Origin: Candidatus Altimarinota bacterium | Lineage (GTDB): Bacteria; Patescibacteriota; Gracilibacteria; BD1-5; UBA6164 | Length of the DNA: 55,971 nt | Direction of reading: 5' to 3' | Assembly: GCA_013368515.1 (NCBI GenBank) | Contig: JABWCI010000008.1 | Location: forward strand, 1-55,971 | Part shown: piece after piece, positions 4,013 to 11,095 of the stretch | How the letters are laid out: every line of letters begins with the position of its first letter | Numbering within the stretch: the stretch's first letter is position 1 | Position numbers and translations under genes: made by a program | The notes under the pieces: model-generated | What the model was told of the DNA's origin: nothing | Seen by the model: the letters and a program-made list of their open reading frames with translations, nothing else | Databases searched by the model: none

Positions 4013-4046
4013 CAAAAAAAAAGAAGTAATTTTTTAAATTACCCTT
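4013..4046 (-). terminator. Terminator at end of rpmG
   Basis: On the minus strand GTAATTT and AAATTAC form a stem followed by a run of T. The 5' arm contains the rpmG stop codon. Confidence 0.6.
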
Positions 4047-4221
4047 TTTTAATTTCTTTCATTTTTAACACTTCGTGTTTTTTTGTTACTTTATTGTATT
4101 TTCTTAATTCAGGACCTTTTTTCCCAGCTTCAAAATTCTTTTTTTGAATATTTGTAACGTGAACAAGGTTTCCAGTTTCAGTTGAATAGTAACCTACATA
4201 AGTTCTTTTACCTTTAGCCAT
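4039..4221 (-). CDS. rpmG: 50S ribosomal protein L33
   Basis: 60-residue bL33. It shows the family order: aromatic strand (TYVGYYSTETGN), TN-x-KN-like segment (VTNIQKKNF) and the C-terminal LRKYNKVTKKHEVLK. The four zinc-ribbon cysteines of the C+ form are absent, so it is a zinc-independent (C-) L33. It ends in a terminator that overlaps its stop codon. frr lies 85 bases upstream on the same strand. Confidence 0.85.
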   Translation of the reverse strand: MAKGKRTYVGYYSTETGNLVHVTNIQKKNFEAGKKGPELRKYNKVTKKHEVLKMKEIKKG

Positions 4222-8707: not shown

Positions 8708-9691
8708 TTAATCAAAAATAACAATTAAGTTGCTATCTTTAAAAATATCTGTCTTGATACATTCTAAGTAACTTTTTAAATTAGTTCATTTTATTATTAT
8801 TTTATAATAATATTGATTATATTTTTTGCTATAATTTGGGTTTAATATAATTTGGATTTCATTTTTTTCATTGTTTAAAATCAATTTATCTTTTATTTTA
8901 TTTATATATTTTAATCCTTTTTCTATATCTTTATTTCTATACTCAATTGTTGCTAATTCACAAAAAGGAGGATAATTAAAAGTCTTTCTTTCTTTTAGAG
9001 TTTTTATAAAAAACTCCTTATAATTATCATAAACTATATCTTTTACTAGTTCATTTTCACTAATAAATGTTTGAATTACAAAATTTGTTTCTACTCAAAG
9101 TCTAGATCATCTTCAAAATAATTGTTTTATATTTGAATATACTTTTTCACTTGTATTATATTTTGGTATTTGAAGTTCTTGTTCTAATAAAATTACTCAT
9201 ATCAGTCCTACATTTTCAAAATCAAATCAAGTAGTTATCATTTTTGTTCATATGATTATTTGAGCATTTTTAAGTATTTCTAGAGCTTTTTCTTTATCAG
9301 ATTTATTTTTTACTATATCAGTATCAAGCCTAAATATATTTTTATCTTTATATGTTTCTCTTAAAATATTTTCTATTTGAACAGTTCATACTCATACTTT
9401 TTGTAATTCACTACTATTACATTTTTCACAATTTTTAGGTACTTTTTGAGTAAAATTACATAAATGACAAGTCATATTATCATTATGAATACTCATAGAA
9501 TTGTCACAATTTGGACATTTGTATAAATAACTACATTTATTACAAATAAGAGAACTATATTCTCATCTTTTGTTTAGATACAAAATAACTTTTTTATTAT
9601 TTTGCATTGAGTTATCTATCTCTTTAAGTAGAGTATTTGATAAATATTTGTTTATTTTTGATTTATCGAGATTTAGATTTACTAGAAGCAT
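8708..9691 (-). CDS. Truncated PriA-like primosomal protein (C-terminal half only)
   Basis: 327 residues matching only the second half of PriA. The protein opens at the segment before the zinc domain and has all eight zinc-ligand cysteines (CNKC, KCPNC, TCHLC, NCEKC at about 55-100). It then has helicase motif V (GTKMITTGFDFENVGL) and motif VI (QLFGRGSRLG) and the C-terminal domain (TFNYPPFCELA). The 3' DNA-end-binding domain, Walker A and DEAH box of lobe 1 are missing. An in-frame TAA lies 33 bases before the ATG and no N-terminal half is nearby. Either a decaying gene or a minimal zinc/lobe-2 protein. The frame has no internal TAA/TAG, which argues for retention. Confidence 0.75.
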
Positions 9692-9770: not shown

Positions 9771-9799
9771 TTGCAAAAAAAAGCTTTTTATATTATTAT
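9771..9799 (+). promoter_or_regulatory. Promoter of candidate small RNA
   Basis: TTGCAA at 9771-9776 and TATTAT at 9794-9799, spaced by 17 bases. The predicted start is near 9806, which is exactly where the hairpin RNA begins. Confidence 0.55.
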
Positions 9800-9805
9800 A
9801 TATAT

Positions 9806-9868
9806 GAGTCATAGCAACGGTGTAAAGTTTCCTCCTTTAACTTTCCACTGTTATATGTCTCTTTTTTT
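9806..9868 (+). ncRNA. Candidate hairpin RNA with anti-Shine-Dalgarno loop
   Basis: A long hairpin (about 21 paired positions with a U-U and a U-C mismatch and one small bulge) spans 9806-9861 and is followed by seven T. The loop, 9830-9838, reads UCCUCCUUU, identical to the core of the 16S rRNA 3' tail. A promoter lies at the right distance and neither flanking gene runs toward this terminator on the plus strand, so a separate short transcript of about 60 nt fits best. Not a family I recognise. Alternative: simple terminator-like structure; on the minus strand the loop would read as AAAGGAGGA. Confidence 0.5.
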
Positions 9869-9937
9869 GTGTTTAAAATTTTTTAATGTTATAATTATTT
9901 TAAGTTTTATAAACAATTATTTTGTAATCATTATTTT

Positions 9938-10702
9938 GTGAATTTAGAAGAAGAAAATAAAGAGTTAAAGAAAAAACTTCTCATAGCACAATCTTGGATG
10001 GAAAGGGAAGTAAAAACTCAAATAAATCTGATTTCAAAAGAAAAAATATCAAATTTATCATCATGAAATATTGAGGATTTTTTTCATGAAAATGTAGAAG
10101 AAATAATCACAACTTGAGTTCATAGTTTTTTTTGAGAACTTATGATTTTAAATACTCCTAAAACAGTAATGGAAAACATAATTTGAGCTGAAATTTTGTT
10201 TTATAATCAAAGACAAAATAAATTTGCAGACTGATTATGAATAATAAGTTCATATCATAAATCAATAGATTATATAATAGAAAGTACTATAACTAAGCCA
10301 TTTAGAAAATTTGCAAAAAAGCATGAACAAACTATTCTTAGAAGAAATGATCCACTAGAAAAAACTCTTAATTTAGTTGTAAATAGTTGATATATATTGT
10401 GAATTGCTAAACTTTTTCATGCTCTTAGTTTGATAAAAAAATGATGAAACTTATGAGAATTTACTAGATGTTTTAGTGATTTTTTAGATAGTCATTTGTA
10501 CATAAAAGACATACTTTTAGAGGAAAATTTCTATAGATTATTAAAAATACTAATTGATAGTGAAGTTTTTTGAAAAAAAAGACACGAGTGAAAGATAACT
10601 TATGAAGAAACAAAAAAAACTAGAACTATACTTATTTGAGACTTAAAAGAGCAAAATTGTGTTATTTATAAGCTCATAAAAATGGGACAAGTTGATATTT
10701 AA
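9938..10702 (+). CDS. Hypothetical protein with N-terminal coiled coil
   Basis: 254 residues, family not recognised. The first 35 residues are a charged coiled coil (LEEENKELKKKLLIAQSW). The rest is soluble and mostly helical with segments such as PFRKFAKKHEQTILRR and LVVNSGYILGIAKLFHALSL. About fifteen internal TGA codons show it is a native gene. Start is taken as the GTG at 9938; there is no ATG upstream before the small-RNA terminator. A hairpin terminator follows, shared with the foreign gene on the other strand. Confidence 0.6.
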
Positions 10703-10771: not shown

Positions 10772-11095
10772 TTATTTACCACAAGCAGAAACTAACAAAG
10801 TTGTTTTACCGGTAGCAATGTTGTATTGCTGAACATTGCTCAAGCCCATTTGATATGCATTTGCCCCATAAGTTCCTTTAGGGTATGCCATATTAAATTT
10901 AACTTCTTTCCAGTTCATATATGAGTCTCGAGCCTTTATTATCACGGTTCCATGATAATAAGCATCCCAAGCACGTGCTTTCACAACAACTCCAATGTCC
11001 CCAGTTGATGGATCACAGTAATTGTTGGAAAATTCAAGTGCATGTGCTGAAGTGGCAAAAACTGCCAAAGTAGCAACTATAGCAAGGCGATTCAT
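10772..11095 (-). CDS. Secreted small protein of foreign origin
   Basis: 107 residues with a textbook signal peptide (MNRLAIVATLAVFATSAHA, cleavage after residue 19) and a mature domain of 88 residues with two cysteines (NYCDP and SACGK) that could form a disulfide. It has a good ribosome-binding site (AAAGGAAAT). The composition is clearly richer in GC than its neighbours. All eight glycines use GGN, none uses TGA, and one Arg is CGA and another CGC, unlike native genes. It reads identically in the standard code. It looks acquired from another bacterium, possibly a proteobacterial host or prey. Function unknown. Confidence 0.75.
   Translation of the reverse strand: MNRLAIVATLAVFATSAHALEFSNNYCDPSTGDIGVVVKARAWDAYYHGTVIIKARDSYMNWKEVKFNMAYPKGTYGANAYQMGLSNVQQYNIATGKTTLLVSACGK

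Follow-up and report, generated by a model that had tools for sequence, protein, structure and literature searches.

A conserved hairpin RNA with an anti-Shine-Dalgarno-like loop in Gracilibacteria that hardly use Shine-Dalgarno sites

Introduction

Small RNAs which expose an anti-Shine-Dalgarno (anti-SD) sequence are known from organisms that use Shine-Dalgarno (SD) sites. The hairpin RNA regarded here is kept in two families of Gracilibacteria that hardly use such sites, and the anti-SD of the carriers' own 16S rRNA is altered, which raises the question of the pairing partner of the loop. Without a match at gathering score in Rfam 15, the hairpin RNA represents a new RNA family; to our knowledge, few regulatory RNAs are known in this group.

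Results and Discussion

Organization of the locus

The window is the whole stretch of 55,971 nt that was analysed. A reading of the sequence alone had described promoter-like hexamers, a hairpin of about 56 bases and a T-run between divergent genes, and all of these are present (Table 1). Both flanking genes require genetic code 25, in which UGA stands for glycine. The hairpin folds with −19.4 kcal/mol (z −6.7, 0 shuffles equally stable). A sample of 356 kb of the own genome contains 58 CTCCTT sites, and no other than this is placed in the apical loop of a stable hairpin; the RNA has a single copy in this genome. The promoter hexamers taken alone are at chance level, with 3 sites in the region and 2.7 expected in shuffles.

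Table 1. Features of the RNA gene, its neighbours and the tRNA-linked element. Positions refer to the window unless another locus is named.
Feature	Position	Strand	Remarks
Promoter	9771..9799	+	-35 TTGCAA 9771-9776, 17-nt spacer, -10 TATTAT 9794-9799
Predicted transcription start	~9806	+	At or near 9806
Hairpin RNA, 56 nt	9806..9861	+	Fold, homologues, covariation; predicted transcript ~9806-9868
Apical loop UCCUCCUUU, anti-SD-like	9830..9838	+	CUCCUU core invariant
T-run of intrinsic terminator, seven T	9862..9868	+	T-rich in most relatives
Extended -10 TGTTATAAT	9887..9895	+	By-eye reading; kept in near relatives; absent from promoter-scan listing
Divergent neighbour, PriA C-terminal part	8708..9691	-	Code 25; PF18074
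Downstream neighbour, 254-aa protein, function not assigned	9938..10702	+	Code 25; no Pfam match
tRNA-linked element	42175-42060	-	After tRNA-Tyr
tRNA-linked element, other copies	L050 3605 (-); L082 531, 770; L260 1750; L088 1774 (-)		

Distribution across genomes

A hairpin missing in relatives had been named among the findings that would speak against the RNA, and it was looked for; a DNA search gave clear relatives in other genera. If a covariance model built from 12 sequences (R1) was used, 25 of the 48 family genomes gave a match, and all of these show the loop or one close to it. A weak R1 match in G023 (L049) is without such a loop. A second model (R2) exposed the form of a sister family of the same order (f2), in which the identical loop sits on a different stem. 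The model built on this form (R3) matched 10 of the 27 f2 genomes, and the f2 loop of 13 nt, UUUCCUCCUUUAC, is identical in all ten sequences.

No R1 match was obtained in 23 of the 48 family genomes, including all eight of genus g13, and no R3 match in 17 of the 27 f2 genomes. As so many genomes of both families are without a match, the RNA is either dispensable or diverged in them. Neither of the two genomes from the third family of the order gave a match, and none of the 276 genomes from other orders of the class gave a convincing R2 or R3 match, while one must keep in mind that scans over more than 40 genomes apply stricter filters and can lose weak matches.

Fifteen of the 25 weak R2 loci were inspected (the ten others are L103 and L111-L119). 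Those in G045, G041, G038 and G040 are true, as is that in G018; the ten remaining inspected loci are without the loop. With E 4e-4 and the loop UUUACCUCCUUUU, G018 would probably be the 26th member in the family; the 25/48 do not include it. None of 11 inspected R3 rows at E 3.8e-6 and above shows the loop (twelve rows, with L172 left out). The two matches in G033, each at the end of a different contig, probably represent a single locus. Of 22 pattern matches among named records, 13 fold into the hairpin (one assembly accounts for two of them) and belong to Candidatus Gracilibacteria or unassigned Patescibacteria; the other nine, mostly from other taxa, form no such hairpin. Viral carriage was considered and rejected, as pattern scans of viral contigs gave no match.

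Covariation of the stem and conservation of the loop

Among 23 distinct sequences of the first family the 21-pair stem is formed in 92.4% of the cells, and 13 of the 21 pairs show changes on both sides. Compensatory cells number 70 compared to 22 in shuffles (0/500) and 5-16 with the partner slid, in an alignment that was fitted to a related model and therefore somewhat favors the structure. L025, whose sequence is the same as that of the window, did not enter alignment A3, and G018 was not part of the covariation count.

Every one of the 23 distinct rows of the first family and of the ten f2 sequences has CUCCUU unchanged, compared to a mean identity of 0.76 in the stem columns of the 23 rows. 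Genus g10 has the loop variant UUAUCUCCUUUU, G012 has UUUACUCCUUU and two g5 genomes have GUUUCUCCUUU; such changes are confined to the 5' side of this core or to the positions following it, and most loops retain the canonical CCUCC. In parts of the lower stem the sequence itself is conserved, beyond the pairing. A loop that changes while the stem is kept had been proposed as a sign against the candidate; the opposite was seen, with a constant loop on a variable stem. Judged by its sequence evolution, the hairpin is a real, evolutionarily constrained RNA gene.

Evidence for a free-standing gene

The gene downstream of the RNA varies by genus: several genera have the unknown protein there and others DnaJ, G016 has RlmN and G009 a pilin (the identities of DnaJ, RlmN and pilin were assigned by eye from the sequences). 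In G021, G022 and G023 it lies on the opposite strand and is convergent, and the f2 neighbours differ again from those of the first family. In most relatives of both families promoter boxes precede the hairpin by about 33-37 nt (-35 box) and about 4-9 nt (-10 box); the best site of the automatic promoter scan is elsewhere in 3 of 24 rows of the first family. In G019 the hairpin is kept, the T-run is lost, and a separate hairpin terminator follows downstream.

By sequence the RNA thus has the marks of a free-standing small RNA, namely a promoter and a terminator of its own and a conservation independent of any one neighbour. As the neighbours differ between genera and the promoter distance is fixed, it is very probably a free-standing small RNA gene and neither leader nor terminator. 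The extended -10 at 9887-9895 probably serves the next gene (9938-10702), which also argues against the hairpin being the leader of that gene; a role as its leader or attenuator was ruled out, since the neighbours differ and the same downstream gene is not always found. The small RNA gene proposed from the sequence alone is supported by conservation, stem covariation, an invariant loop core, a fixed promoter position and changing neighbours.

In genus g24 of f2, the RNA gene lies 5-35 nt after ksgA (Pfam RrnaAD) in six genomes (L153, L098, L156-L159). KsgA is the methylase of the 16S helix beside the anti-SD. In G041, G054 and G074, also of f2, the RNA follows another gene.

The loop and the 16S tail

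The loop had been described as identical to the core of the 16S tail, which does not hold for this order: its own 16S tail is UAUCUCCUU and not CCUCCUU. Because the own tail reads GGACUAUCUCCUUA, loop and tail have only CUCCUU as a common core, and the loop carries the CCUCC that was lost from the 16S. The tail is GGACUAUCUCCUU in all 22 tails found; the pattern, which matched in 22 of the 77 genomes of the order, left the five changed positions open, and 16 full-length genes of the family were also compared. The canonical 16S core CCUCC has become UCUCC across the order (e.g. L050), so that in most carriers the loop, with its CCUCC, does not reproduce the own tail. An exact copy is excluded by the 16S tail sequences of the order.

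A lost canonical anti-SD core together with scarce SD use is described for Absconditabacteria SR1 in PMC10783764, whose main text does not mention 'Gracilibacteria'. An involvement of Era was also weighed; according to PMC10582724, Era binds GAUCA and CCUCC and is lost from most CPR. RNase P RNA was likewise weighed as a partner for pairing.

SD use and candidate targets

The core of the loop is complementary to AAAGGAG, which makes SD binding by the loop plausible. In the 356 kb sampled from the own genome (G000), none of 312 ORFs of at least 100 aa has AGGAG or GGAGG at −20 to −4; gene starts were set at the first ATG, by which some SDs may be missed. The nearest to SD-led are a 97-aa ORF and one AAAGGA site. 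With no SD-led ORF among the 312 and only these two near cases, SD targets in the own genome are few. Words complementary to the loop show no clear enrichment in this genome compared to reversed-word controls.

If the genes of twelve sampled genomes are divided by their use of UGA for glycine, an SD occurs on 10 of 66 genes without UGA-glycine compared to 3 of 1341 with it (Fisher 7e-12), and on 6 of 179 genes with fewer than six glycines. The class without UGA was defined on three genomes and then applied to nine more; it tells little in G045 and G038, as these two make scarce use of UGA. Both were kept in the counts; the replication would be stronger without them, a choice that would have been made post hoc. 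In the first three genomes no SD was found among 822 UGA-glycine genes. The difference is 5/18 against 0/256 in G022 and 3/5 against 0/303 in G041. The nine-genome replication alone is weak, with 2 of 38 genes without and 3 of 519 with UGA-glycine (p 0.04). Contamination is no explanation for the SD cases of G022, whose assembly is one contig; it may be one for those of G041, which lie on a small contig (C5). Nor does the absence of UGA prove a foreign origin, as the native rplL is also without UGA-glycine. The near confinement of SDs to genes without UGA-glycine is seen at L205, L198, L195 and L196 (G022) and at L212, L216 and L226 (G041).

SD-led genes carry mainly AAAGGAG and include an acyltransferase, a lyase, a chemotaxis receptor, a PAS protein, a C39-like peptidase and Pfam-less proteins. 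They appear to be few, mostly non-recoded and acquired-looking, which fits an early remark that foreign genes could be affected. The same remark named rpsU, which finds no support as a target: a crude motif scan of the window and of the further stretches sampled gave no rpsU-like ORF. The loop pairs more strongly than the 16S tail with 8 of 19 SD-led starts, and overall the two are about equal. The low p-value for loop pairing of SD-led compared to other genes follows from the SD motif by which the genes were chosen, and we do not count it as evidence.

Two further genes were observed. Near the RNA, a 107-aa ORF (10772-11095, minus strand) has a signal-peptide-like start, no UGA, and AAAGGA seven bases before its ATG; it gave no clear Pfam match and no plasmid match, and it was probably acquired. 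Similar genes at L257 4803-5276 (-) and L260 4278 (-), in G008 and G026, both have AAGGGAGGTT before the start, a rare case of an SD-led gene shared by two genomes; the L257 copy has no Pfam match.

Proposed role and alternatives

The simplest reading, to which we give a probability of about 45%, is that the loop of the small RNA masks the SDs on a limited number of mRNAs, most of them acquired. The promoter would start a trans-acting RNA of about 60 nt at the foot of a single long hairpin, with the T-run as its end. The stem would display an invariant pyrimidine loop of the UUUCCUCCUUU type, which could pair with SD-like AAAGGAG(G) just before start codons and keep ribosomes off SD-bearing mRNAs. 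As the native genes of the lineage are without SD, the regulon would be small and consist mostly of genes that still carry one, largely acquired and non-recoded. The loop does not out-pair the own 16S tail, and the RNA would therefore have to be abundant. Conservation, covariation, the invariant core, the fixed promoter, the rarity of native SDs and the SD excess among genes without UGA-glycine are observed; transcription, pairing in the cell, repression and purpose are what we infer. Because the carriers hardly use SD sites themselves, the RNA may act mainly on foreign or acquired genes. If SD-bearing acquired genes are indeed the partner, it would represent a translational counterpart of the transcriptional silencing of foreign DNA.

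A doubtful yet serious competitor to masking is titration, by which the loop would imitate either a pyrimidine tract or the 3' tail of the 16S, and would hold a protein (a ribosomal protein such as bS1 or bS21, or an assembly factor) instead of mRNAs. The native genes offer nearly no SD to pair with, and a lower stem partly conserved in sequence is as expected of a protein site. The position of the RNA gene after ksgA in the six g24 genomes points in the same direction; KsgA acts next to the 16S tail. With CCUCC in the loop and UCUCC in the 16S, however, the mimic would be unfaithful in most carriers, genus g10 being the exception, the protein partner is a candidate only, and the adjacency to ksgA is limited to one genus.

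That the RNA is antisense to one or several particular conserved mRNAs carrying AAAGGAG, which lay outside the sample or escaped recognition in it, is unlikely. The leader of a bL33-like gene (named by eye, window 4042-4221), which has AAAAGGAGAUUU about 30 nt before the start, could serve as an example, and such sites are rare between genes. A conserved target was nevertheless not found in the 31% of the own genome read for sites, the site in this leader may fall outside the mRNA, and the 60-aa protein has no Pfam match.

A wider form of masking, the silencing of foreign genes as such, seems distinctly unlikely to us. Here, in a lineage that has abandoned SDs, altered its 16S anti-SD and recoded UGA, a decoy RNA with the canonical anti-SD would mask SD-led phage, plasmid and acquired mRNAs. 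Native mRNAs, being free of SD, would be spared, and the SD itself would be the mark of non-self.

That the hairpin is a cis element, i.e. terminator, attenuator or leader of a neighbouring gene, is very improbable. A hairpin followed by a T-run would suit it, as would the 9 of 10 f2 genomes in which the RNA lies 5-100 nt after the stop of the same-strand upstream gene. Against this stand the RNA's own promoter at a constant distance in both families, neighbours that vary over a loop that does not, where terminator loops are not expected to be invariant, and G019, which retains the hairpin without the T-run. A chance hairpin in AT-rich DNA, suggested by the chance level of the promoter hexamers alone, can practically be dismissed given the covariation, the distribution in two families and the sole looped CTCCTT among 58 sites.

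Relation to known RNAs

The trait of anti-SD small RNAs, a conserved unpaired sequence complementary to the SD, is present here with CUCCUU invariant in the loop. RNAIII and sX13, which are larger RNAs, offer loop bases for pairing at translation starts, and their organisms use SD ordinarily. No homology of the hairpin RNA to either was detected. Both are small RNAs with C-rich loops, RNAIII from S. aureus (PMC2837412) and sX13 from Xanthomonas (PMC3771888).

The alpha-r14 or 'cuckoo' RNAs, with NfeR1 of Sinorhizobium, are trans-acting and have an ultraconserved unpaired anti-SD motif on strongly divergent stems, and mRNAs are silenced by NfeR1 through pairing where translation starts (PMC10746234). 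NfeR1 has three hairpins with CCUCCUCCC and occurs in alphaproteobacteria, in contrast to one hairpin of the UUUCCUCCUUU type in SD-poor, recoded Gracilibacteria. Membership in this family was rejected, as one hairpin with UCCUCCUUU stands against three with CCUCCUCCC (PMC10746234). The only Rfam match at any score, suhB/mmgR (RF00519), was rejected likewise with 13.5 bits compared to a cut-off of 41 (E 2.3).

Published SD-poor lineages provide the same setting, with genes mostly without SD and an anti-SD that is altered or unused; in the accessible parts of these publications a small RNA with an anti-SD loop is not described. Among the titles on SD or small RNA in Gracilibacteria and CPR, from a literature lying mostly outside the subscription journals, none concerns such an RNA.

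An element after tRNA genes

We further report a conserved element of about 110 nt after tRNA genes (Tyr, Ser, Gln), with six copies in four genomes (Table 1). It consists of GATTCGAAAGGAGG, a small hairpin, ATTGTGACGAATAGGAACAAT and CGGATGTC..., followed by a second copy of roughly the final 20 nt of the preceding tRNA. The copy in the window has no Rfam match at gathering. The element recalls the rtT repeats of E. coli tyrT.
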